Below are positions 2,369 to 20,427 of a DNA stretch of 22,638 nt, piece after piece; position 1 is the first letter of the stretch; each line of letters starts with the position of its first letter. The notes beneath the pieces were generated by a model, which saw only the letters and a list, made by a program, of their open reading frames with translations, was not told where the DNA came from and did not search any database. Origin of the DNA: a virus; IMG/VR virus record IMGVR_UViG_3300033149_000507, positions 1 to 22,638 of that record, one strand, 5' to 3'. The translations under genes and the position numbers were made by a program.

Positions 2369-3661
2369 ATGGAACAAATTTGGATTAAAGACGGCAAGTT
2401 CAACGAGCTTTCAGAAAACGAAGCGCACGGACTTAAAGTTGAAGAAAAGGCAGCCTATATGGTTGCTTTGAATGGTTCTAAAATGGACGCTCTTAAGAAA
2501 GAAATGGAGGCTAAAGTAGGAACGGAAGTAGTAGACGAGTTAAAAAAGCAGTTCGGAGAGCTTAAGGAGAAGCACGTAGAGCAGTTAGAAAAAGCTATGG
2601 AAGAGCAAGGCAAAACACTTGCAGACCTTAGAAAATCTAACGCAGCCTTAGAAGCTCCTAAGAACATGAGCGAAGAACTTAAACACGTTTGGAACGCTAA
2701 GAAAGACGAAATAGCGTCTTTCATTGACGGTAAGTCTAAAGGGTTTAACCTTGAATTAAAAACAGAAGTAACAAGAGCAAGCGTAGCAAATAATACTATG
2801 GCGCATTCTGTGGAAGGTGTAGGACAAATACCAAGACGTTCAAACGCTATTATTGACTTGTTTAGCGTAGGTACTGTAAGCCCTAACTCTAACGGAGTAG
2901 TTAGATACTGGGAGCAAAACAGCCAAACAGACAACGCGGCTAATATCGCCGAGTCTGCGGCTTACCCTGAGTCTGCTATTGATTGGATAGAGAGAACTTT
3001 ACCAGTAGAGAAAATTGGTGATTCTATCCCAGTTACTAGAGAGGCTTTAGAGGACGTTGATTTTGTAGGCTCTGAAATTAGAAACTTCTTACTTAAAAAC
3101 GTTGATTTGCGTTGCGATCAACAAGCGTTATTAGGTACGGGAGCAGCTAACCAACTTACAGGAGTAGACACTATCGCACCAAACTGGGCAGCGGGTAATT
3201 TTGCCGCTTCAATCGACGATGCTAGTATCTACGACGTAATTTCTACGGGGTTAGTGCAGATTGCAAACGCAGGACAAAACAACGCTTTTGTTCCTAATGC
3301 AATCATTATGAACCCAGAGGACGCGGAGTTGATGCGACTTACTAAAGACGCAGACGGTAACTACGTTATGCCAATGTGGATGACGCAGGACGGTATGAGC
3401 GTAAGAGGTGTTAGAATTATCGAGAACCAATTAGTACCACAAGACGAGGCATATATCGGAGACTTTACTTTCGGTACTATGTTTGGAATGGGAGGTGTTA
3501 CTTTAGATGTAGCTACTCAACACGGTACGGACTGGCTAGAGGACGTAACTAGACTTAAGGCATCAGTAAGAAAAGCCTTAGTTATTAGAAACGTACACTA
3601 CGGAGCGTTCTTGCACATTGACGGTATCGCAGCCGCTCAAGCAGCGTTAGAGACTCCTTAA
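2369..3661 (+). CDS. Major capsid protein (HK97 fold) with N-terminal delta domain
   Basis: This 430-residue shell protein has the two-part layout of HK97 gp5. Residues 1 to about 105 are strongly helical and charged (KKEMEAKVGTEVVDELKKQF and following), matching a scaffold-like delta domain, so no separate scaffold gene is needed. From about residue 130 a typical HK97-fold core follows: the loop region, VEKIGDSIPVTREALEDVD at the spine helix, DLRCDQQALLGTGAANQLTG, then PNAIIMNPEDAELMRLTKDADG, and a P-domain end with VRKALVIRNVHYGAFLHIDG. Proteolysis near residue 105-130 is expected from the adjacent protease but the exact site cannot be read. The start lies 4 nt after the protease stop. An intrinsic terminator follows directly, consistent with high-level expression of this gene. 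Confidence 0.93.
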   Translation: MEQIWIKDGKFNELSENEAHGLKVEEKAAYMVALNGSKMDALKKEMEAKVGTEVVDELKKQFGELKEKHVEQLEKAMEEQGKTLADLRKSNAALEAPKNMSEELKHVWNAKKDEIASFIDGKSKGFNLELKTEVTRASVANNTMAHSVEGVGQIPRRSNAIIDLFSVGTVSPNSNGVVRYWEQNSQTDNAANIAESAAYPESAIDWIERTLPVEKIGDSIPVTREALEDVDFVGSEIRNFLLKNVDLRCDQQALLGTGAANQLTGVDTIAPNWAAGNFAASIDDASIYDVISTGLVQIANAGQNNAFVPNAIIMNPEDAELMRLTKDADGNYVMPMWMTQDGMSVRGVRIIENQLVPQDEAYIGDFTFGTMFGMGGVTLDVATQHGTDWLEDVTRLKASVRKALVIRNVHYGAFLHIDGIAAAQAALETP

Positions 3662-3916: not shown

Positions 3917-4438
3917 ATGGCTCGATTTGTAGCAGTAACAGACTTTGAAAGCGGGGAGTTTTTAATCTCTGCACAAGATCAAACCGCAGACTTAGAGGCG
4001 GTAATAGATAGGCTAGAAGAGGAAGTATTACAGGACTTACTAGGTAAGGAACTTTACGACCTATTTATAGCAGACCTAGACGGCTCACCAACTATACCGC
4101 AAGCACCACTAACAGCTAGGTTCTTAGACATCTATAACCCTATCTTTGAAACTGACCCTATTTACATACGTTCGGAGGGGTTTATAAAGATGCTACAAAT
4201 GTTTATATGGTTCGAGTACACCAAAGACTTAGGCAAACAAAATACGCCCGTAGGATATGTACAAAACGAATTTGCTAACGGGGTTAATCTGTCAGCTAAT
4301 AAGGCGGGTATAGAAAAGACATATAACAGAGGCGTTAAATCGTTTCACGCTGTACTAGATTATATTATACAGGATTCGACCACTTACCCAGAGTGGGACG
4401 GGCAAGGCAAAGTAAAAGAGTTTATTTCTTGGTTATAG
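3917..4438 (+). CDS. Putative head-tail connector (head completion adaptor)
   Basis: This 173-residue, mostly helical protein occupies the position of the head-tail adaptor (gp6/gp15-like) between capsid and tail genes. The segment LEAVIDRLEEEVLQDLLGKELYDLF resembles the N-terminal helices of such adaptors, where a short helix pair is followed by 'LLG..ly..l'. The C-terminal part has a conserved-looking helix with KSFHAVLDYIIQ and an aromatic end (EFISWL). This pattern resembles proteins common in Bacteroidota phages that carry only domain-of-unknown-function labels. The gene abuts the next start with no spacer (TAG then ATG), so the two are probably translated together. Structural role inferred from position and helical content. 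Confidence 0.6.
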   Translation: MARFVAVTDFESGEFLISAQDQTADLEAVIDRLEEEVLQDLLGKELYDLFIADLDGSPTIPQAPLTARFLDIYNPIFETDPIYIRSEGFIKMLQMFIWFEYTKDLGKQNTPVGYVQNEFANGVNLSANKAGIEKTYNRGVKSFHAVLDYIIQDSTTYPEWDGQGKVKEFISWL

Positions 4439-6115
4439 ATGGCAACTAAAACACCCGACACGGTAGACATAATAAGCGACCTAGTAGACCAGTTAACCCC
4501 TATGTTCGCTATTGACTCAGCCACAACGAACGCAGACGGCACTTATACACTAGAAACGCTTAACACGTATTGGCTAAGACCTGAAAAGGTTATAACGATA
4601 GACGGCAAAGATTACCGTATAGTATCTTTTGTAATTAATGAGTCAATAACTATTAAGGAAATAGTTACGGGTTCGGGAGTTCCAACGGTTACAGCTTTCT
4701 CCATACCTAAGCCTAATTTTTATCACGGCACGCCCATGATGGCAGGACAAGAGCAAGGCAGGGTAAAGAGCGCAGCAGGTAAGACGCCTTTTATATGGCT
4801 TTATGAAGTGTTTAACGAAACGGTAATAGACGACAGGCGTAGCCCGTACGGTAGAAGCTCAACGCCTAGACTGTTTTTTATGGACGAGGCAAAGAATAAA
4901 GATTGGACTAGCGCACAGCATAAGACAAACGCTATAGAGCCTATACGACAAATGAGCGAATTACTACAGGCTACCATAAGGTCGCAGCGCGATATGTTCG
5001 ACGAGGTAAAGGAGAGGACAGAAATAGCCCGCGCAAACTGGGGAACGTTTGTAACTGACAAGGGTAATACGAGTCGTTTTTTCAATCAAGACTTAAGCGG
5101 CATAGAATCTACTTTCGATCTAGTAATGACTAAAAAGGCGTGCGATAATAGAATAGGCGGGCTTAGTTGTAACATAGGTGTAACAGTTTCGACGACAGAC
5201 GAGACAGGAGCAGGTGCAGCAGACGGAACAGCCACGGCAAACATAAGCGGGCTACAGGGTGAGGCTAGTTATTTATGGACTACCGAAGACGGTAGCATAC
5301 CCGCAGGAGAGGAAACAAAGCAGACCGCAACGGGGCTAATAGCGGGTACTTATACCGTGTTAGTATCAGATAGCGTTTTAGAAAATTGCTCTGCGATGAA
5401 TAGTGGAGACGTTAACGCGTTAGCGACGGCAAACCCTGACGACCTAGACAATTTAACTATATGGATAAGACCAGACATTCAGACCTTGTTTAATGGCGGT
5501 TCGGTTTCTGATTTAGACCCAGTTTCTGACGCTGATTCGCAAGCACCCGCAACGGTTGACTTCTTGGAAGCTGTGGCAGCCGATCAAGCTACATGGCATC
5601 AAGCAAGCGGGGGAGACTTAGAATATATAAGATATAATAAAACGCAAGGTACTAGACTTAATTCTACCTACGGGCAAGCAGCAGGATTTACGACTATTGA
5701 TGTTATCGAAATGGTTACACTTTCAGCAGACAATAATATTTGGGATAACGAAGGGGGCGGAGGTACTAACTACAGGCTTCAAATAAATGCAGACGGTGAA
5801 ATAAAACTATCGTCTTCCGATCAAATTGTAACGGGGGTATTAGATTATATATCTGCGGGACAAAAAGTAGTTATTACGTGCGTAGTAAATGCAAGCGGTA
5901 CAGACAGTAAATTAAGGATAAATAACGAGGATTGGATAGAGGGCGACTTAGCTACTAAGGCAATAAACAACTTTACATACGGTTCAAAAGCAAATAACGC
6001 TAATTCAGAAAGTGGAGATTTTAAGCAATTCGAATCGGTACTTTATAGCGATGTAAAGACAGACGAAGAGATAGACCCAGTTAAGAACGGTTTAATGTTA
6101 AAGCATGGAATTTAG
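4439..6115 (+). CDS. Modular neck/tail-completion candidate with SprB-like Ig domain and LamG-like domain
   Basis: This 558-residue protein is a mosaic. Residues 1-245 form a phage-type domain of unknown family (DTVDIISDLVDQLTPMF, TPFIWLYEVFNETVIDDRRS), placed where neck or tail-terminator proteins are encoded. Residues 245-320 resemble one SprB repeat or PKD/Ig-like unit: Cys near 244, 'DGTATANISGLQGEASYLWT', then 'TATGLIAGTYTVLVSDSVLENC'. Residues 335-558 look like a concanavalin/LamG jelly roll: NPDDLDNLTIWIRPD at the start, a beta-rich core, and GDFKQFESVLYSDVKTDEE near the end. The Ig and LamG parts would be exposed on the virion and may bind carbohydrate; this is inference. The start directly follows the upstream stop, and the stop overlaps the next ATG by 11 nt. 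Confidence 0.65.
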   Translation: MATKTPDTVDIISDLVDQLTPMFAIDSATTNADGTYTLETLNTYWLRPEKVITIDGKDYRIVSFVINESITIKEIVTGSGVPTVTAFSIPKPNFYHGTPMMAGQEQGRVKSAAGKTPFIWLYEVFNETVIDDRRSPYGRSSTPRLFFMDEAKNKDWTSAQHKTNAIEPIRQMSELLQATIRSQRDMFDEVKERTEIARANWGTFVTDKGNTSRFFNQDLSGIESTFDLVMTKKACDNRIGGLSCNIGVTVSTTDETGAGAADGTATANISGLQGEASYLWTTEDGSIPAGEETKQTATGLIAGTYTVLVSDSVLENCSAMNSGDVNALATANPDDLDNLTIWIRPDIQTLFNGGSVSDLDPVSDADSQAPATVDFLEAVAADQATWHQASGGDLEYIRYNKTQGTRLNSTYGQAAGFTTIDVIEMVTLSADNNIWDNEGGGGTNYRLQINADGEIKLSSSDQIVTGVLDYISAGQKVVITCVVNASGTDSKLRINNEDWIEGDLATKAINNFTYGSKANNANSESGDFKQFESVLYSDVKTDEEIDPVKNGLMLKHGI

Positions 6116-6356
6116 AGGTATAACAGGAACGCGAGAAGAGTCAGAAAGCAGGGCGTTAAGACTGTGGGAGGCAATAAAAGACATAGCTGTAGGCACGTCT
6201 AATTCGTATTCCGATGTAATACAGAACCCAACAGAAGAGAATTTAACGGCAATTAAAGTGGTTGAATCGGGCTACTATTGGGACAACGTACGCGAAGAAC
6301 TAACACAAGAAGAGATAGACAGTATAGAAGACATTAACTGGTCTAATAGTGTATAA
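6105..6356 (+). CDS. Small acidic protein of unknown function
   Basis: This 83-residue, Glu-rich and mostly helical protein is not recognised. Its ATG lies 11 nt inside the end of the LamG-containing gene, and it is the last gene before the promoter region of the major tail protein. The second half contains VVESGYYWDNVREELTQEE, suggesting a short folded helix pair. It has no signal peptide, membrane segment or cysteines. Placement suggests a neck, tail-completion or chaperone role, but nothing in the sequence proves it. The frame is open and its base composition resembles the flanking genes, so it is probably real. Confidence 0.6.
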   Translation: MEFRGITGTREESESRALRLWEAIKDIAVGTSNSYSDVIQNPTEENLTAIKVVESGYYWDNVREELTQEEIDSIEDINWSNSV

Positions 6357-6414: not shown

Positions 6415-7371
6415 ATGAGTAATATAGGTACTTGTAGCTGCGGACCCGGTAGCTCAATCAATAACTATGGTTTAGCTAACTGCTTAAAGGGGTTAGACGT
6501 GCCAGAAGATGTTATATTTTTAGACTTGGACAAAGTAGACGGAACTAGCAACGGGATTGACTTAGTTAACGACACTTTAAACCAAGCCTTTTTTGACGGT
6601 AAATTCGAAGCGGCAGACGCTCGCGAAAGGTGGCTATTGATAAAGGACGTTGAAGACTTCCAAAGCACACCCGCAGACGCTAATACATTCACTTTTCCAA
6701 GTGGTAGAATTATCAAATTGTCCGATGGTATCAGACAGGTTGTAATGACTTTTCCAATAGCTGACCCTTACAAGCTGAAAGCTAAACTCGATACAATGGG
6801 ATGTAGAAGCATTGCAGTAATGTATAAAGATAGAAGTGGCTCTTTAGTTGGTCAACTGTCAGGAGACGACTTTATAGGTCGTAAGATCGTAGACGGTTCT
6901 TTAGACGTTAAGGCATACGATAAGACAGACACCGAAGCGGCTAGAGTAGAGGTTTCTTTTCAATACGCTAGAAGCGCAGCAGACGCGGACGTAGATTTTA
7001 TAGAAGAGGCTTCTATGGGCGGTTATTCTTTAGACTCAGTAACTCCACTATTAGACGCTAACATAGAATTTGTTTCTGCTACTACTGCGGCGGTAACGTT
7101 CAAGGTTTTTGCCGATTGGGGCGGGGCATTGTCACGAGTTCCGATAGGCGGACTAGCGGACGCGCCTAGCTTAGAGATTTACAACGTAACAGACGACACG
7201 GTAGAAACTTTGTCTAGCTTTACAGAATCTACGGCGGGTACTTATGTAGCTACTTACTCCGTAGCTGTGGACTCTTCGGACGTAATCGAGGTTAGAGGCA
7301 TTGGCGAGGACTACATACAGTTAGGTAATGACCTTAAACGCTTAATAGGTGAAACTATAACAACCGCGTAA
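6415..7371 (+). CDS. Major tail (tube) protein with C-terminal Ig-like domain
   Basis: This 318-residue protein is probably the tail tube subunit. The N terminus (TCSCGPGSSINNYGLANC) matches the Cys-rich '...N.G...C' opening that I associate with major tail proteins of Bacteroidota phages. A beta-rich middle follows, including VVMTFPIADPYKLKAKLDTM and a basic-acidic 'DRSGSLVGQLSGDDF' stretch. From about residue 205 a separate beta-sandwich-like domain occurs (IEFVSATTAAVTFKVFADWG, ESTAGTYVATYSVAVDSSDV), similar to the Ig-like domains that decorate tail tubes. The gene has its own promoter box and a 30-nt leader, fitting a protein needed in many copies. It ends as TAATG, overlapping the next start by 1 nt. 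Position before the assembly genes and tape measure supports the call. Confidence 0.82.
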   Translation: MSNIGTCSCGPGSSINNYGLANCLKGLDVPEDVIFLDLDKVDGTSNGIDLVNDTLNQAFFDGKFEAADARERWLLIKDVEDFQSTPADANTFTFPSGRIIKLSDGIRQVVMTFPIADPYKLKAKLDTMGCRSIAVMYKDRSGSLVGQLSGDDFIGRKIVDGSLDVKAYDKTDTEAARVEVSFQYARSAADADVDFIEEASMGGYSLDSVTPLLDANIEFVSATTAAVTFKVFADWGGALSRVPIGGLADAPSLEIYNVTDDTVETLSSFTESTAGTYVATYSVAVDSSDVIEVRGIGEDYIQLGNDLKRLIGETITTA

Positions 7372-7586
7372 TGGCTAAGAAAACAGAAAAGATAGGCGGT
7401 ATTAATTTCGTACTCCAAGGGGTAGCCAGATCGACCCGTAAGGCTTTTGATAAGTCGTACGGCAGTCCTGACAGCTACCACAAATTAAGCCCAACCCAAT
7501 TAGATAGGGTTTGGGACACCTTACAAGAGGTATTAATTAAAGAGGGGTACAAAAAGAAGCCTAAAAAGAAGTCTAAAGACGACTAA
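7371..7586 (+). CDS. Small basic tail-region protein
   Basis: This 71-residue protein is unrecognised. Residues 1-20 look beta-like (KIGGINFVLQGVARSTRKAF), the middle is helical (SPTQLDRVWDTLQEVLIKEG), and the last 14 residues are Lys-rich. It begins with a 1-nt overlap (TAATG) with the major tail protein and ends with the same arrangement into the next gene, so it is tightly coupled. Location between tube and tape measure genes suggests a tail-assembly or tube-associated function. No catalytic or metal-binding motif is seen. Confidence 0.65.
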   Translation: MAKKTEKIGGINFVLQGVARSTRKAFDKSYGSPDSYHKLSPTQLDRVWDTLQEVLIKEGYKKKPKKKSKDD

Positions 7587-8029
7587 TGTTTGACACAATA
7601 AGAAAAGTAACTAAGAATATGCAGAGCATAACCGCCGAGCGTGTTCTTAGTTTACTTATCGAAGGGGACGAACTGAAAGACTTAATAATAGAACTCAATA
7701 CGGACGCGCAGTTATTCCAAAAGGGGATAGACTCACAGGGGCAAAGCCTTGGAGAGTACGCCGAAAGTACCAAACTATTAAAGAGGTCTGATGGCTTACC
7801 GTTCGATAGGGTTACATTATACCAAGAGGGCGACTTTTACAAAACGTGGCGCGTCTTTATGCGTAACGGCAATATAGCCATAGAGGCAGACGGCGACAAA
7901 GACGACAAGAACCTTTTCGATGTGTACGGCGAGGACGTAGTAGGATTAACCGAGGAAAACTTACAAATAGTTATAGATGAAATTAAAAACGATACTCCTG
8001 AACTGGTTAAAGAGCTTCTTTTTGCCTGA
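7586..8029 (+). CDS. Putative tail completion/assembly protein
   Basis: This 147-residue protein has an N-terminal helical part and a central motif, GIDSQGQSLGEYAESTKLLK, followed by DRVTLYQEGDFYKTWRV. This 'D..G..LgeY......G...v.Ly.tGdFy.s..v' layout resembles small proteins in Bacteroidota phages and, loosely, gp10-type tail-completion proteins. The end is acidic and helical. It overlaps the next frame by up to 53 nt, unusually long here, and the next frame is in the +1 register, so a frameshift product analogous to a tail assembly chaperone cannot be excluded. I favour a separate tail-completion or assembly protein. Confidence 0.6.
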   Translation: MFDTIRKVTKNMQSITAERVLSLLIEGDELKDLIIELNTDAQLFQKGIDSQGQSLGEYAESTKLLKRSDGLPFDRVTLYQEGDFYKTWRVFMRNGNIAIEADGDKDDKNLFDVYGEDVVGLTEENLQIVIDEIKNDTPELVKELLFA

Positions 8030-8525
8030 GCTGTACGACGACTTGCACACTATGCCCGTAGTGATTTGGTGGAAAGTACAGAAAGCAGACGACGCTTTAG
8101 ACTTAATCAAGGGTAAAAAAAGGAGATCGAAACGCATCATAAACCATTGCGCGAAACAATGGGACAAACTAAACGACGATTTTACAGACTATTTCGGGGT
8201 ACAACCTGCACAACAAAAGTATTTAAAGCTATTAGGCTTACAACAGTATTACGCGGCTCAATATGCTATAACTAAATCTCATTACTGGACTACCAAAAGA
8301 CTGATAACAGAGGCAGAACTAGAGGACTTACGACCAGAACGCGCCGAAGAGTTCAACCAATACGAAGAACTTAGAAGCGTATCAATGGCTTTAGGTGGGG
8401 CTAATATGAACCCGTTAGAGATCAGCGTAATACAGTACTATTCAGATAAGAATTTAGCCGTTAAGAAGAGCAAAGAGGCTAAAAGTGAGGCTAACAAATT
8501 AAAGGCTAAGAGATGGCAGAAATAA
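7977..8525 (+). CDS. Putative tail assembly protein upstream of the tape measure
   Basis: The frame encodes up to 182 residues from ATG 7977. The real start may be TTG at 8022 (8-nt overlap with the upstream stop, protein beginning at LPELYDDLHTMPVVIWWK) or ATG at 8052. The segment LPELYDDLHTMPVVIWW looks like the true folded start, since the preceding 15 codons overlap a gene in another frame. The body is helical: KRRSKRIINHCAKQWDKLND, then QPAQQKYLKLLGLQQYYAA and a Lys-rich end. The order (completion protein, this gene, tape measure) and 13-nt overlap with the tape measure fit a tail assembly chaperone or tape-measure partner. Family not recognised with certainty. Confidence 0.6.
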   Translation: MKLKTILLNWLKSFFLPELYDDLHTMPVVIWWKVQKADDALDLIKGKKRRSKRIINHCAKQWDKLNDDFTDYFGVQPAQQKYLKLLGLQQYYAAQYAITKSHYWTTKRLITEAELEDLRPERAEEFNQYEELRSVSMALGGANMNPLEISVIQYYSDKNLAVKKSKEAKSEANKLKAKRWQK

Positions 8526-11500
8526 AACGTACGGACATATTTGCTAAAAACGTCTTTACAGACCCCGCAAAGGAGGCGGAGATGCTAGACGATGCGCTGA
8601 ATATGGTTGAAAAGTCATTGAAGGACATAGCCAAATTGTCAGCCGAGGCGGTTAAAAACTTCAAAGTAGCCGATTCTAAAGACCTAAAAGAGTTTAACGA
8701 GGCATTAGGACGAAGCAAAAAGGCGGTTTCTGATCTCGACGAGTTCGAAAAAAGACGGTTAAAAACGCTAAAGAAATTAAAAGAGGCTAATAGTACAAGG
8801 ATTGAAGACTTAACCGAGCTACAAGTACAATTACAGGAACAAAACAAGGCTAACAAACAACTAGCCAAAGAGAAACTTGGACTTATTGGGGCGTACCAAA
8901 AGGAGAGCGCACGACTTGTAAAACTGCGTAAGGAGTACAAAGATTTAGCCGTTCAGAACAAAGAGAACACCGACGAGGGCAAGAAGTTACTCAAAAACAT
9001 AACCACCTTAGACAAGAAGTTAAAGGACATAGACGAAACGGTAGGACAAAACCAGAGAAGCGTAGGAGACTATAAGAAAGCCGTAGAGGGTTTAAATAGT
9101 ACAATAGGTAAACTTGGTATAGTAGCGATTGTAGCTAAAGGATTCGACCTATTAAAAGACGCTTTCGGAGACACTAGAGAGGGGGCTTTGGCTTTACAAA
9201 TAGCATTCTCGAAGTTCACCGTAACCGCGAGGGTGTTTATAAATAACATAATTAATGCGGGTTCAGGGGTTAAAGATTTGTTTGTAGCTATATTTAACAC
9301 ATTTGAGGCTATAGGCGTAAGAGCAGAATTAACCATAAAAAAGATAGACCTATCTATATCAAAACTTCCCTCAACCGTTGCAAGACTAGAGGGTGAAATA
9401 TCGGTACTAGAGGACAAATTAAGCGAACTTGAAAAAACAAAAGTATCGGACGCTATAGATAAAATAGCCAAAGCGTTCGACGGAACAGTAGACAACACAA
9501 AAAGGGCTTTAGATGCAGAAAAGGACTACCTTGAACTTCAATTAAAAACGCGAATACAAATAGAAGAGCAGGAAAGAGCCTTAGCAGGACTAGCCGAAAA
9601 GCGACAGATATTACAGGACATAAGCGACGATGACACTATAGGATTCTTAACAAGAGCCGCAGCAGTCGAAAAGGCTAGAGAGGCAGCTATAAAATTTTCA
9701 GAGTTAGAATTAAAACTAGCAAAGACGCGAGAAAGGTTAACAATAGATGCGGTAAAACAAAGCCTTAGAGAAGCCAACGCATTGACAGAAGCCCAACTAG
9801 ATCAAATAAAAAGCGGAGAGCAGTTAGAAGAGGCTTTAACTAGACGTTTGTCATTTTATAAGAAACTAGAAGAAGGGGAAGAGGACGTATTAATAGCCCT
9901 TAAGGTATCGGACGAGGCAGACGAAGCCTTTACAGCCGCGTTCTTAGAGCGTATAAACAAACAAGTAGAAGCCGAGGCATTTAGACGAGATCAAGGCGAA
10001 AAGAACAGGAAAACAGCGCGGGACGCTTTCGAGCAAGAACTTGACATACTGGAAGAGTTCACAGAAAAGAGAATAGCCAACAATGAGCAAATAATAGGTA
10101 GTGACTCCGAAAGTTTAGAGGCTAGGAGAATAGCACTATTAGAAAATCAAGCACTAGAACAAGAGCTTTTAGAGGCTAGTATAGACCTAATATTAAAACA
10201 AGGTAAAGCCTCTATTGATTTAAGACAAAAGGAAATAGAACAAAGCAAGACCTTGAACGATGAAAAAAAGAAAGAAAAAATAGCCTTATTGGAAGAGCAA
10301 AAAGCCCTATTAACTAGAGAGGCTATACAGAAAATATTAAACGAACAAGACGCGCAAGAAATATTTAACTTAATCAGAAAGCTAGACCTTGGAGAGATCG
10401 AAGAAAAGAGACTAAAAGAAACCCTTAAAATAAAAGAGGACACGGCTAAAGTAAATAAGGATTCAAGCGAGGCGGAGCAAGAGGCGGCACTTAAAACGAG
10501 TGAGCTACTGGACGACATAGCGTTACAAGAAAAGGTACTAGCAGGGGAGCAAGTAGACCTAGAAGACGAGAGATTAAAGAAACAAGAAGAAAGCCTAAGA
10601 AAAAGAATCGAACTAGCCAAAGAGGGTTCTATAGAACAGCTAGAACTACAGAAGGAGCTTAATGATTTACTAATAGAAGAGGACAAGAAAGCAGCCGAGG
10701 AACGCCAAAAGATAAGAGACGCAGAATTAGAAGCAGCGCAAGACTTAGCGAATGAAATAATCGACCTAACATTAGAAGAGTTAGCCAAAAAAGACGAGGC
10801 TAGGTTACAGGCTATAGACGATCAGATAAGCGGACAAGAGGAACTTATAGCCAAACTAAGGGAGAACGCAGAGAAGGGAACAGAAGAGGCGTTAGCATTT
10901 GAAGAGGCGCAGTTAGAAAAGCAAAGACTAGCCCGCCAAAGAGAAGAAGAAAGACAAGCCAAACGTAACGAGGCTATACAATTAGCCCAAACGTTCCTCA
11001 ACCAAGTAGCCGAACAGTCTAAGGAGAACCCAGACACCGCAATAGCCGAAGCGTTTAAAAACACGTTCTTAGCTAGGGCAATAGCTAGAGGTTTAGCGGG
11101 ATTCTTTGAGGGTACGGACGACACAGGTAGCGGAGACGGTAGGTTAAGCGATAAATACGGTAATATAACAGGCTATACGCATGAGAACGAAATGGTATTT
11201 AGTGCCAAACAAAAGGCAGCTTTAGGACATAAGACAAGAGAGGAAATAATAGACATAGTACAAGACTATGACGCGGGTAATACGTGGGCTTTTATGCCAC
11301 GCCTTGAACAGATAGAACAGCCTAAAGGGTTAGACCTGTCGGAAGTGGTAGAAAGCAATAACAGGGTAGTTAAAGCAATAAGAGAAAACGCGGTACATAG
11401 TGAGTTCGATTTGTCAGGCTTCAACTATTGGATAGAGGAACGAATTAAAGGCAGTCAGAAAGAAGTTATAAAACACATGATAGAAAAGTTTAGACGTTGA
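8513..11500 (+). CDS. Tape measure protein
   Basis: This 995-residue protein is the longest gene here and almost entirely alpha-helical and charged, as expected of the tape measure, which sets tail length and fills the tube until ejection. It has an N-terminal coiled coil (about residues 60-185), the characteristic ETVGQNQRSVGDYKKAVEGL at about 176-195, a short hydrophobic helix (IGKLGIVAIVAKGFDLL, about 198-214), then long Glu/Lys/Leu coiled coils to about 880. The C terminus contains ITGYTHENEMVFSAKQKAAL, a common closing segment in these proteins. At roughly 0.15 nm per residue the tail would be about 150 nm, an inference from other siphophages. No lytic or peptidase domain is visible. The start overlaps the upstream gene by 13 nt, and the stop forms TTGA with the next TTG start. 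Confidence 0.93.
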   Translation: MAEIKRTDIFAKNVFTDPAKEAEMLDDALNMVEKSLKDIAKLSAEAVKNFKVADSKDLKEFNEALGRSKKAVSDLDEFEKRRLKTLKKLKEANSTRIEDLTELQVQLQEQNKANKQLAKEKLGLIGAYQKESARLVKLRKEYKDLAVQNKENTDEGKKLLKNITTLDKKLKDIDETVGQNQRSVGDYKKAVEGLNSTIGKLGIVAIVAKGFDLLKDAFGDTREGALALQIAFSKFTVTARVFINNIINAGSGVKDLFVAIFNTFEAIGVRAELTIKKIDLSISKLPSTVARLEGEISVLEDKLSELEKTKVSDAIDKIAKAFDGTVDNTKRALDAEKDYLELQLKTRIQIEEQERALAGLAEKRQILQDISDDDTIGFLTRAAAVEKAREAAIKFSELELKLAKTRERLTIDAVKQSLREANALTEAQLDQIKSGEQLEEALTRRLSFYKKLEEGEEDVLIALKVSDEADEAFTAAFLERINKQVEAEAFRRDQGEKNRKTARDAFEQELDILEEFTEKRIANNEQIIGSDSESLEARRIALLENQALEQELLEASIDLILKQGKASIDLRQKEIEQSKTLNDEKKKEKIALLEEQKALLTREAIQKILNEQDAQEIFNLIRKLDLGEIEEKRLKETLKIKEDTAKVNKDSSEAEQEAALKTSELLDDIALQEKVLAGEQVDLEDERLKKQEESLRKRIELAKEGSIEQLELQKELNDLLIEEDKKAAEERQKIRDAELEAAQDLANEIIDLTLEELAKKDEARLQAIDDQISGQEELIAKLRENAEKGTEEALAFEEAQLEKQRLARQREEERQAKRNEAIQLAQTFLNQVAEQSKENPDTAIAEAFKNTFLARAIARGLAGFFEGTDDTGSGDGRLSDKYGNITGYTHENEMVFSAKQKAALGHKTREEIIDIVQDYDAGNTWAFMPRLEQIEQPKGLDLSEVVESNNRVVKAIRENAVHSEFDLSGFNYWIEERIKGSQKEVIKHMIEKFRR

Positions 11501-16064: not shown

Positions 16065-17150
16065 ATGCCAGAAACAGGAAAAGTAAGCGAATATTTAAAC
16101 GAGTTAACAGCAGAACCCGCAGACGATGACTTGTTCGACGTAACCGTATTGATCTCTACAGCGCCAGACGTTTGGCAATCTCAAAAGATGCGATACGAAG
16201 AGATAAAAAACGCTGCTGAAGGTGTGGCTATAGATGATGATCTGATAGTTATCGGTACAGGTACAGGAATAGAGGGTAGCACAGGCAAAGCAGGTGGCAT
16301 AGTAGGCGACGAAATGTCTTTATACATAGCTCAAAAGGACTTTTTTAATGGTGACGACTACGCATTTTGGCAAGGTGATGGAGGTGATAGTCAAATGAAT
16401 GCGCCATCGGGTAATATTGCCGTTATAAGTATCGACAACCAACCTAAAATAAGTGTATCGGACGGTGTTAATAGTGGTGTTGAATTGGGCTTTGGGTCTT
16501 CGGATGTAGTTAGAGTAGGCGGTACGGGGGGAGATGCAAAGCTTCAGATAAAATCAATTGGCAACGATGATACCACTTTCGGTATAGAGGCTTTTGATTC
16601 AGACGATGTATTACTGTTATCTCTTAGGGATGATGGGCAATTATTTCTTACAAACGGTACAGGAGTTAACAACATATCTACGGATAGTGATTTTTCAGGA
16701 GCTACCGACGATGAATTAAAAACTGCATTAGCTATAAAAGATTTTGTAGAGTCTCAATCTTCTGGCGGTTGGTTAGGCTCTGAGACACGAATAAAGATAG
16801 CTCCGTGGGATGTAGTCTCGTATAATGATAAAGACGGCGTATCTATTCAAGACGATGGGGGCGTAGTAAATGACGCAGCAGCTAAGATTACTACAATGGT
16901 AACGGGTGTATTTATTCCTACTGGCTACAGGGCAACGGCTTTTATGATAAACGCAAGCGCTAATATAGCCGTTGAGTTGTTTGAAAGCCAAATAGACGAT
17001 GCAACGGCAGTTTCAAAAGGCTCAGGAAATGCAAATACGGAAGTTAACATAACCAACGTAGACTCTACGACTACAAATTATCTCTCCATAATTATAGTAG
17101 AGGCAGGTAATGACATTTATGGAGGTTACATTACAATAGAAAAAATATAA
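16065..17150 (+). CDS. Tail fibre/receptor-binding protein
   Basis: This 361-residue protein has the layout of a phage tail fibre. The N terminus (KVSEYLNELTAEPADDDLFDV, here split as KVSEYLNELTA then PADDDLFDV) is the common fibre opening 'kiSe.n.lt....dDlf.v'. Residues 75-200 are Gly/Asp-rich beta, likely a trimeric shaft. STDSDFSGATDDELKTALAI (about 205-224) resembles the recurring fibre motif 'td..l.GasDd.latq.AIkdYv'. Residues 235-361 form a C-terminal tip domain that may bind the receptor. It is more GAT-rich for Asp (about 22 GAT to 18 GAC by my hand count) than neighbours such as 7586-8029 (5 to 11), suggesting exchange. It has its own promoter box and ends as TAATG into the next gene. 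Confidence 0.8.
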   Translation: MPETGKVSEYLNELTAEPADDDLFDVTVLISTAPDVWQSQKMRYEEIKNAAEGVAIDDDLIVIGTGTGIEGSTGKAGGIVGDEMSLYIAQKDFFNGDDYAFWQGDGGDSQMNAPSGNIAVISIDNQPKISVSDGVNSGVELGFGSSDVVRVGGTGGDAKLQIKSIGNDDTTFGIEAFDSDDVLLLSLRDDGQLFLTNGTGVNNISTDSDFSGATDDELKTALAIKDFVESQSSGGWLGSETRIKIAPWDVVSYNDKDGVSIQDDGGVVNDAAAKITTMVTGVFIPTGYRATAFMINASANIAVELFESQIDDATAVSKGSGNANTEVNITNVDSTTTNYLSIIIVEAGNDIYGGYITIEKI

Positions 17151-17497
17151 TGCAGCAAACTTACCCACACTTAAAAAATCAGTGTTGTAGGCTTAAAACA
17201 CAAGTTCCAGACTACACACTACAGAAGATAATAGACAATGCAGAAATGAACAATTCGGACGTATATCCCGCTCAGGATTCAGGTAATTTCATGCAATTTG
17301 ATATGACTAACGAGGCAGAGGGATACCCTTGTGTTCATTTAGGTGAAGAGGGGTGCACTATACACCCCCAGCGCCCAGCGCAATGCGCTTCTTTCCCTTT
17401 AACGGAAAAAAGTATAGAATTTTGCACAGGCTGTAGTTATACATTTGATGCGAATGAGAACAGGTCTGGATCATGTAACGGATGTAATGTAGTGTAA
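17150..17497 (+). CDS. YkgJ-like cysteine-cluster (zinc/iron-chelating) protein
   Basis: This 115-residue protein contains the core of the CxxCxxCC (YkgJ) family: CC at 12-13, then YPCVHLGEEGCTIHPQRPAQ followed by Cys and SFPL. The Cys61/Cys69/Cys79 with His72 and the 'RPaqC..fP' element are diagnostic. Two further CxxC pairs occur at 92-95 and 109-112. The family is described as metal or Fe-S binding, with little known biochemistry. The gene is locked into the tail-tip operon by 1-nt overlaps at both ends (TAATG), between the fibre and another tail-tip gene, so it is likely needed for tail assembly or function. No signal peptide is seen. Whether it is a virion part or an assembly factor is not determinable. 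Confidence 0.75.
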   Translation: MQQTYPHLKNQCCRLKTQVPDYTLQKIIDNAEMNNSDVYPAQDSGNFMQFDMTNEAEGYPCVHLGEEGCTIHPQRPAQCASFPLTEKSIEFCTGCSYTFDANENRSGSCNGCNVV

Positions 17498-18620: not shown

Positions 18621-18804
18621 CATAGTCGTTGAAGATCATATGGCACTAGCTGAGGTAGTAGAAGCATATTGTAAGATGGCTATCACATTAGGCACAACAG
18701 GCTACGCGCTGTGGATGCTCTTTAAAAGGGGCAATACCAAGCAAAAAGAAGAGATTAAAAAACATATTGAGGAAACCATAAAGGAAACTTTAAAAAATGA
18801 GTGA
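18553..18804 (+). CDS. Putative holin
   Basis: This 83-residue protein has two probable membrane helices, about residues 8-26 (DISAPLLVVGVGWMTNIVV) and 42-58 (MAITLGTTGYALWMLFK), followed by a strongly charged Lys/Glu tail (residues 60-83). Size, two helices, charged cytoplasmic tail and a directly overlapping endolysin gene (8-nt overlap, ATGAGTGA) fit a class II-like holin that opens the inner membrane to release the lysin at a set time. Holins are too diverse to assign by sequence alone, so the call is based on topology and context. Confidence 0.65.
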   Translation: MLKDTIIDISAPLLVVGVGWMTNIVVEDHMALAEVVEAYCKMAITLGTTGYALWMLFKRGNTKQKEEIKKHIEETIKETLKNE

Positions 18805-19273
18805 ATCGGAAATACTAAGAGGTATCAAGGATTATTTCGAGGTTTACGAGTTTATAGACAAGCGCACCTTTGACAAATACGGCGAGAAGTCTTGGCAGTT
18901 TATCGACATTAGATTGTTACATACTATCCTAATCATACGCGACGAACTAGACAAGCCTATGACTATTAACAACTGGAAATGGGGCGGGGGATTCTCTCAG
19001 CGCGGTTTAAGAACTAACATAAGCCATATCGTAAGCAAGAAAACGGACGCGGGCAAACTGTACCTATCTGCTCATACAATGGGAAAAGCTGTTGATTTTG
19101 ACGTTAAAGGCATGACAGCCCCAGAGGTTCGGGAGTGGTTACAGGATAACGAGGACTTATTACCCTATAAAATAAGACTTGAAAACAATATGAACGGCAA
19201 GCCTATTAACTGGGTTCATCTTGACGTTTATTACCTAGAAAGAAACCCTAAAATTTATTTATTTGACGTATGA
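18797..19273 (+). CDS. Endolysin: M15-type zinc peptidase
   Basis: This 158-residue protein carries the M15 peptidase zinc motif: SAHTMGKAVDFDV gives His93 and Asp100 as two ligands, and the distal INWVHLDV gives His141 as the third. Glu129 in IRLEN is a plausible catalytic residue. It resembles the short M15 (D-Ala-D-Ala carboxypeptidase/L,D-type) lysins of many Bacteroidota phages, which cut peptide crosslinks of peptidoglycan. The N-terminal 45 residues are helical and have no signal peptide, so export would require the holin upstream, whose stop overlaps this start by 8 nt. The next gene overlaps by 4 nt. No separate cell-wall-binding domain is visible. Confidence 0.85.
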   Translation: MSESEILRGIKDYFEVYEFIDKRTFDKYGEKSWQFIDIRLLHTILIIRDELDKPMTINNWKWGGGFSQRGLRTNISHIVSKKTDAGKLYLSAHTMGKAVDFDVKGMTAPEVREWLQDNEDLLPYKIRLENNMNGKPINWVHLDVYYLERNPKIYLFDV

Positions 19274-19736: not shown

Positions 19737-20149
19737 TTCTATTAATACTATGCTTTAGCCTGTTTTCTTGTGGTGACAAATTAATAGAATCTGAAAGAGA
19801 CGTTCTAACGTACACAATTAATCACGACAGCATATTACAACAGATTGACAATAAAAAGCGCTTAGAGGGGCTTAAAATGGATTCTATTAGTAGATTAGCT
19901 AAAGAGATTACCCGACTTAACACAATGAAGGAGGTTAATATGCTTAATCACTTCGAGAAAGTAAAGGATTCTTTAGTACACGAATTAGAGATAGAACACA
20001 AAATAGTACATCAATTACAGGAATTACCCAGAGATTCTATTATATTTGACACGATATACGAGTATATTACTGTTTATGATACCGTTAAAATATACGATAC
20101 TGTTACAGTCAAGTACTCCAAGTTTAACAAAAAACGAGTCAAAAAATGA
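19724..20149 (+). CDS. Lipoprotein, putative outer-membrane spanin subunit (o-spanin)
   Basis: This 141-residue protein has a lipoprotein signal: positively charged N terminus (RK), hydrophobic LILLILCFSLFS and lipobox L13-F14-S15-C16, then G17. The mature chain is a long charged coiled coil (for example KRLEGLKMDSISRLAKEITR, about 46-65) with a C-terminal segment rich in Asp-Thr-Ile/Tyr repeats (DTIYEYITVYDTVKIYDTVT) and a basic end. It overlaps the i-spanin candidate by 13 nt and the next lipoprotein start by 4 nt. o-spanins are usually shorter (40-110 residues) and often proline-rich, so this would be a long variant. Its other possibility is a virion or envelope lipoprotein. Confidence 0.6.
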   Translation: MRKLILLILCFSLFSCGDKLIESERDVLTYTINHDSILQQIDNKKRLEGLKMDSISRLAKEITRLNTMKEVNMLNHFEKVKDSLVHELEIEHKIVHQLQELPRDSIIFDTIYEYITVYDTVKIYDTVTVKYSKFNKKRVKK

Positions 20150-20427
20150 AAAAAATAGCTTTAGTATTGCTTGTTGCTCTAGTTGGATGCAGTAAGGAAC
20201 AGGACGGACAATGTAGTATTTGCACCGTAACAATAACGGACGATTTAACAGGGGCTAACAGCACCACAGTAAAACAAACCGAGAGACACGGGCAAAGCTC
20301 AGGAGCTTGTAGTATGTCGCAAGACGAATTTAAGAGCGAATTAGCAAGCGAAGCGGCTAACGGCGTGGAAGTGCTAAACGCCCAAGGCATTAACGCGACT
20401 TACTCCGTAGATTGCGCTTATGAATAA
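20146..20427 (+). CDS. Second small lipoprotein with four conserved-looking cysteines
   Basis: This 93-residue protein has a lipoprotein signal peptide (KKIALVLLVALVG) with lipobox L12-V13-G14-C15. The mature part has four cysteines (23, 26, 55, 90), allowing two disulfides, and a Thr/Ser-rich beta region (TVTITDDLTGANSTTVKQTE) followed by a helix. Small proteins of this style occur in Bacteroidota genomes without assigned function. It is the last gene of the lysis cassette, overlapping the o-spanin candidate by 4 nt. A phage-encoded outer-membrane lipoprotein could serve in superinfection exclusion or in blocking receptor reuse; this is only a hypothesis. It precedes the terminator pair. Confidence 0.65.
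   Translation: MKKIALVLLVALVGCSKEQDGQCSICTVTITDDLTGANSTTVKQTERHGQSSGACSMSQDEFKSELASEAANGVEVLNAQGINATYSVDCAYE

Follow-up and report, generated by a model that had tools for sequence, protein, structure and literature searches.

The gene at positions 4439-6115 of the viral DNA analysed here encodes a neck protein with a predicted tail-terminator fold, to which an exchangeable outer part is attached: one SprB-like Ig repeat and a terminal domain predicted to be a ConA-type jelly roll. This outer part and the small gene downstream form a cassette that is swapped between closely similar phages and has moved between phages, including the otherwise unrelated, Winoviridae-like L042. It is likely that the cassette supplies neck-anchored lectin arms, about six per ring, for attachment to host or environmental glycan.

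The Neck Gene and Its Genomic Context

The window is the full 22,638-nt stretch, positions 1-22,638 of IMG/VR record IMGVR_UViG_3300033149_000507. Its neck-gene ORF encodes a 558-aa protein of three parts: a neck domain (residues 1-236), a SprB-like Ig repeat (241-326), and a predicted jelly roll (334-558). A previous sequence-only reading of this DNA had placed the adhesin-like half at 5171-6115, beginning with residue 245; codon 245 indeed starts at 5171 and the stop codon ends at 6115. The features relevant to this gene are as follows.

375-1691, + strand: portal protein, context (PHROGs portal, E 1.4e-32)
1684-2364, + strand: head maturation protease, context (PHROGs head maturation protease, E 1.7e-32)
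2369-3661, + strand: major capsid protein, context (PHROGs major head protein, E 5.4e-39; capsid proteins of Flavobacterium phages are 31-32% identical)
3917-4438, + strand: head-completion or adaptor candidate, DUF6712-like, 5' neighbor of the neck gene (weak Pfam DUF6712 match, E 0.058; place kept in all loci reaching that far)
4439-5146, + strand: neck domain, residues 1-236 (AlphaFold2 model, Foldseek, stand-alone homologues)
5159-5416, + strand: SprB-like Ig repeat, a single one, residues 241-326 (Pfam SprB, shuffle test, seven-strand model)
5438-6115, + strand: predicted ConA/LamG-type jelly roll, residues 334-558 and stop (Foldseek; BLASTP homology to the L021 and L026 terminal domains)
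6105-6356, + strand: companion gene, 83 aa, overlapping the 3' end of the neck gene (family tracks the type of terminal domain)
6415-7371, + strand: tail tube candidate, the next conserved downstream gene (named by position and length, with no family match; homologues in all loci reaching that far)

Wherever a related locus extends far enough, it keeps the order capsid, adaptor, neck gene, tail tube. Further downstream, the gene for a 147-aa tail protein (7586-8029, phrog_6195) overlaps a 182-aa ORF (7977-8525) by 53 bases just 5' of the tape measure gene, possibly a tail-chaperone-type arrangement. Among the tail-end genes, 17150-17497 encodes a 115-aa cysteine-rich protein that by eye has a YkgJ-type metal-binding look. 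The segment 18797-20427 is, again by eye, a likely lysis block, with an M15-type peptidase (18797-19273), small membrane proteins, and a lipoprotein-like ORF (20146-20427).

The host is probably a flavobacterium or another member of the Bacteroidota, since the capsid protein has its nearest relatives in Flavobacterium phages, which are also the only phages matched by the tail gene at 11497. A scan for the Bacteroidota promoter motif found 3 occurrences for 1.24 expected, a count reached in 11 of 100 shuffles and not clearly above chance.

In the virus collection, the full-length protein occurs only as identical copies (L002, L003). Related loci L004-L007 and L012-L027 were reached through the capsid, the portal, and the neck domain, and twelve more (L029-L040) from L027, which lies on the same contig as L028. 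No relative of the whole protein or of the neck domain was found in INPHARED, and no cultured phage there has this domain. Similarly, no cellular relative was found in the bacterial-genome collection; the two scans used full-length or neck-domain patterns and have little bearing on the origin of the repeat. Pfam and PHROGs gave too little signal for the window neck protein by itself, and the relatives alone settled its assignment.

A Neck Domain with a Predicted Tail-Terminator Fold

The AlphaFold2 model of the neck domain, based on 20 sequences (pLDDT 85, pTM 0.83; pLDDT about 80 in the full-protein model), predicts an N-terminal beta barrel (about residues 20-97) followed by a tail-terminator-like fold (about 98-232). 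The top PDB matches retrieved with Foldseek are the P74-26 neck, lambda gpU, T4 gp15, the SaPI1 neck, T5 p142, the Mu terminator, cyanophage A-1(L), and Milano. About half of the best 50 are terminator or neck proteins, and BppU is not among these 50. The terminator matches, with E of 0.001-0.1 and TM-scores of 0.2-0.5, compare folds, not sequences; when the neck domain was compared with the PDB by sequence profile, the result was noise, and the fold search alone worked. For the full model, the two best matches among viral models are stand-alone phage proteins of 228-246 aa (TMt 0.72-0.78), and many of the others are phage ConA-like proteins.

The protein thus resembles tail terminators such as lambda gpU, T4 gp15, and T5 p142 in its predicted fold, and its gene likewise lies between the adaptor or stopper and the tail tube, the latter itself named by position. 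The model shows the neck domain to be of the tail-terminator fold class. The earlier proposal that the carrier is a neck or tail-completion protein is borne out, and its fold can now be named as that of a tail terminator. Unlike those terminators, the protein has an additional N-terminal beta barrel and C-terminal adhesin-type modules. Additional domains have been reported in larger terminators, for example domains interacting with the sheath (PMC11784142). Rotary-ATPase barrels also occur in the match list; the first hundred residues form a separate barrel, and these matches probably concern it. As no other gene lies between the adaptor gene and the neck gene, this barrel may be the stopper or head-closure part.

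Whether residues 1-245 stand alone elsewhere had been set beforehand as a test of the fusion, and its outcome is positive: residues 1-236 correspond to the whole protein in L006 (224 aa) and in L028-L038 and L040 (241-246 aa). Where an outer part is present, the neck domain ends at a (S/T)KxxC motif that is conserved, and the L006 protein stops at the matching position. Two loci with a stand-alone neck domain, L034 (1590-3659) and L040 (2447-3660), have a 109-111 aa ORF and a fibre-like protein between the adaptor and the neck gene. These fibre-like proteins (578 or 292 aa) are similar at the N terminus and different at the C terminus, and the related L035 is without the insert. This slot may hold attachment genes in a separate form.

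A SprB-Like Ig Repeat as Proposed Spacer

SprB is an adhesin repeat of Bacteroidota, and SprB-type adhesins are large exported proteins with many tandem repeats and a secretion tail. For the isolated 86-aa piece of the window protein, Pfam SprB (PF13573) is the best family (E 4.6e-4, compared with 0.02 for PKD); for the whole protein, the E is 0.0087. The window scores, 16.1-21.3 bits (20.2 for the isolated piece), are below the curated cut-off of 28 bits, and a SprB search over the whole window record hits a single place, 5183-5284, within the neck gene. The cut-off is passed by repeats at the same place in relatives, with 31.9 bits for L014 and 28.7 bits for L024 (whole protein) and 28.7 bits for the L026 record. 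Of 14 related records, three have a SprB match above the cut-off.

When aligned, all 12 homologous repeats share the residues C, G, W, L, G, D, and C. Their signature is a cysteine at the start, a central YxW, the closing motif L-x-x-G-x-Y-x-V-x-V-x-D, and a cysteine at the end. When the window repeat is left out and a profile is made from the remaining 11, the window protein scores 85.1 bits against it, whereas the best of 2000 segment shuffles reaches 12.3. The resemblance to SprB is thus not due to chance, because the relatives share the aligned repeat and the shuffle test separates it so widely from random segments. In PDB searches, the repeat profile weakly matches 5lxk, 8zvi, 9occ, and 3shs.

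The Ig unit of the full-protein model has seven strands (pLDDT about 75) and is separate from the neck domain, so that the protein is not one continuous fold over residues 1-558, the outcome named in advance as refuting the sequence-only reading; its proposal of one SprB-like unit stands. The window protein differs from SprB-type cell-surface adhesins: it has a single repeat, Pfam finds no secretion-tail family in it, and the carrier is a phage neck domain. The open literature searched yielded no account of phage-borne SprB repeats, and an INPHARED search with the SprB repeat returned a single, weakly matching phage record.

A Predicted Lectin-Type Jelly Roll at the C Terminus

Foldseek comparison of the full model with the PDB retrieved the PilC lectin module, sialic-acid-binding modules of CBM40, LNS/neurexin domains, and other jelly rolls of the ConA type. 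The jelly-roll matches (CBM40, LNS, PilC) have E of 1e-7 to 1e-4 and TMt up to 0.50 and come from a low-confidence part of the model, the pLDDT block means of the tip being about 30-83 and mostly low. L021 and L026 have terminal domains homologous to the window jelly roll (BLASTP E 3e-17 and 9e-18). The latter has no Pfam match and stays below the 27.6-bit cut-off of Laminin_G_3 (PF13385). This cut-off is passed by homologues occupying the same slot in L013 (35.1 bits), L018 (29.6 bits), and L017 (30.1 bits). An HMM comparison of residues 335-558 with LamG, suggested earlier as a check, is therefore negative for the window itself and positive for these same-slot homologues. Together with the lectin-type Foldseek matches, the homologues uphold the earlier view that a LamG/ConA-like jelly roll extends to the C terminus, and the model supports residues 334-558 as a ConA-type jelly roll, probably of lectin type. 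We do not claim close kinship between the window-type and the Laminin_G_3-type jelly rolls, because profile comparison gives a probability of 6%. In the L021 record, a separate 237-aa open frame elsewhere (G008:C1:29747-30223) has a strong Laminin_G_3 match of 41.2 bits.

Architectures and the Companion Gene

The neck domain occurs in six architectures among the loci.

Neck domain alone: L006 (224 aa), L027/L028 (246 aa), L029-L038 and L040 (241-244 aa)
Neck domain and window-type jelly roll, without SprB: L022, L023
Neck domain, one SprB, and window-type jelly roll: window, L021, L026
Neck domain, one SprB, and Laminin_G_3 domain: L013, L017, L018
Neck domain, two SprB, and LamG-like domain: L007
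Neck domain, two SprB, and leucine-rich-looking domain: L014-L016, L024, L025

The leucine-rich character of the L014 and L024 tips comes from reading the sequence; Pfam gives only LRR_EndoS, with E 0.16.

An ORF of 58-92 aa lies directly 3' of each neck gene with an outer part and usually overlaps it (window 6105-6356; L007 8068-8307; L013 7572-7790; L015 8259-8435; L017 7557-7781; L021 7653-7916; L024 8398-8583; L026 1522-1773). Loci with a stand-alone neck domain lack this companion; in all eight such loci examined, the tail tube candidate comes directly next. The companion sequences form blocks by tip type, with z of 10-19 for window, L021, and L026, 17-23 for L007, L013, and L017, and 6-7 for L015 and L024. 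Between types, z is mostly near 0, the largest value being about 3.3 (window versus L024). The companions of L022 and L026 reach a z of only 5 despite their common tip type, and L018 is an exception, as its tip matches Laminin_G_3 and its companion is unlike the others. By sequence comparison, the companion family follows the tip type and not the neck domain, since L017 and L026 have near-identical neck domains and unrelated companions.

Exchange of the Cassette

The sequence-only reading had overlooked that the outer part is exchangeable, together with the gene at 6105-6356, as a cassette. In two pairs of phages the outer part has been replaced between flanking DNA that is 74-97% identical on both sides. 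L017 and L026 have neck domains 88% identical and repeats 60% identical, and BLASTP finds no match between their tips at E 1e-3; at the DNA level, identity is 81% up to L017 position 6890, there is no match across the tip, and identity is 97% from 7788 on. Similarly, the neck domains of L022 and L024 are 86% identical; DNA similarity is lost at L022 position 5106, at the end of the neck domain (the codon of residue 237 extends to 5113), and returns at 6120. Conversely, the window, L026, and L021 have a common tip type (BLASTP E about 1e-17 for the window against each) on neck domains that are only 43-61% identical.

The cassette also occurs outside this group of phages. What L042 has in common with L026 is limited to the SprB repeat, the tip, and the companion, which are 88% identical in DNA (L026 610-1783). 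Its protease, its capsid protein, and the upstream 174-aa protein are 30-40% identical to those of Flavobacterium phage lotta8-2 (Winoviridae). The L042 cassette (611-1881) is a gene of its own, with an ATG at 620, directly behind the 174-aa phrog_6911 gene. We rejected a fusion by frameshifting in L042: the slippery-looking TTTAAAA at 604-610 leads to the wrong frame, and the ATG at 620 overlaps the upstream stop.

It is possible, and we put it forward tentatively, that these are instances of a mobile adhesin cassette common to Bacteroidota phages. It would consist of one or more SprB-type Ig spacers, an interchangeable lectin or leucine-rich tip, and a dedicated companion, and would insert behind neck-region genes of unrelated families: a terminator-like neck protein here and a head-to-neck gene cluster in the Winoviridae-like phage. 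The companion would serve the assembly, folding, or capping of its specific tip, and gliding-adhesin repeats of the host would be the source of the Ig spacer.

Proposed Role of the Outer Part

We propose that residues 1-236, with their beta barrel and terminator fold, would make up the neck ring between adaptor and tail tube. Tail terminators form hexameric rings, as in phage Douge (PMC13033339), and about six copies of the C-terminal arm might accordingly project from the neck, each with one SprB-like Ig spacer and a ConA-type jelly roll at its tip. From its predicted fold, the jelly roll would most likely bind a glycan on the host surface or in the surroundings. Such binding may be weak but multi-copy and accessory to receptor binding by the tail tip; avidity from several weak tips has been proposed as the benefit of glycan-binding domains on neck, tail, and capsid (PMC6669499; PMC13033339). 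The small downstream gene probably aids the folding, assembly, or capping of the terminal domain.

An unlikely alternative is that the outer part is a structural decoration that stabilizes or spaces the head-tail joint and binds nothing. Some phage decoration proteins do serve capsid stability, according to a review (PMC7602432), and neck domains exist without an outer part, so that the ring does not need it. However, terminal domains that are exchanged for unrelated folds between near-identical neighbors are typical of ligand-binding tips and not of joint stabilizers. Moreover, the recognized tip types, ConA-type and Laminin_G_3, are binding-type folds, and the third looks leucine-rich.

Somewhat less probable still is an enzymatic jelly roll, a glycan lyase, hydrolase, or sialidase-like enzyme that would remove exopolysaccharide or capsule near the neck. 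An alginate lyase (1uai) is among the proteins with a ConA-type fold, and several of the Foldseek matches are glycosidases, but the compactly aligned matches are lectin modules (CBM40, LNS), whole glycosidases aligning only at an rmsd above 20, and the fact that tips of the Laminin_G_3 and leucine-rich-looking types can take its place suggests binding. Very improbable, and for the SprB unit refuted by the shuffle test (85.1 versus 12.3 bits), is a third reading, in which the beta-rich tail formed by the C-terminal half is due to chance or specific to the lineage and its SprB and LamG resemblances mean nothing: in the window alone SprB is below its cut-off and LamG without a match, but homologues at the same place pass both cut-offs.

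Relation to Known Phage Adhesion Modules

The reading as neck-anchored lectin arms has its closest parallel in the neck passage structure (NPS) of lactococcal 936 and P335 phages (PMC6669499), which likewise has a conserved N-terminal anchor (about 180 residues, 236 here), several unrelated C-terminal groups (carbohydrate-binding modules, CBMs, in the NPS), a neck location, and modules common to and shuffled between phages. One of the neck CBMs of 936 phages bound its host (PMC6669499). However, the NPS anchor is a BppU-like beta sandwich that forms a collar and is non-essential in TP901-1, and its spacer is a coiled coil; here the anchor has a predicted tail-terminator fold, the spacer is a SprB-like Ig unit, and the tip is exchanged along with a companion gene.

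Ig-like units are also found, surface-exposed, on virion proteins such as lambda gpV, T4 Hoc, T5 pb10, those of Douge, and the "putative neck whiskers protein gp24" of PDB 9occ, and the Ig-like domains of mycobacteriophage Douge bind host glycans (PMC13033339). In contrast to these, the best family here is SprB and not PKD, Big_2, or FN3, and the Ig unit would act, within a terminator-like protein, as a spacer beneath a lectin-type tip. Gut Bacteroidota phages carry modular Ig-like adhesins for which adhesion has been shown (PMC13370021); there BACON and PKD were tested on epithelium, and the terms SprB and neck have no occurrence in the text of that paper. With the SprB repeats of gliding flavobacterial adhesins (PF13573), the unit shares the family profile match and the signature of cysteines, YxW, and closing motif, but one or two copies on a phage neck protein replace the long arrays. 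The working principle is known from the 936 NPS, whereas the anchor, the SprB spacer, the set of tips, and the co-swapped companion differ.

The phage neck is usually regarded as a joint and a valve. Here, a terminator-fold protein appears to double as an adhesin carrier. The natural pairs of near-identical phages that differ in the tip and its partner gene are a ready series for the role of neck adhesins and the function of the companion. The same pairs bear on how attachment modules pass between families of flavobacterial phages.
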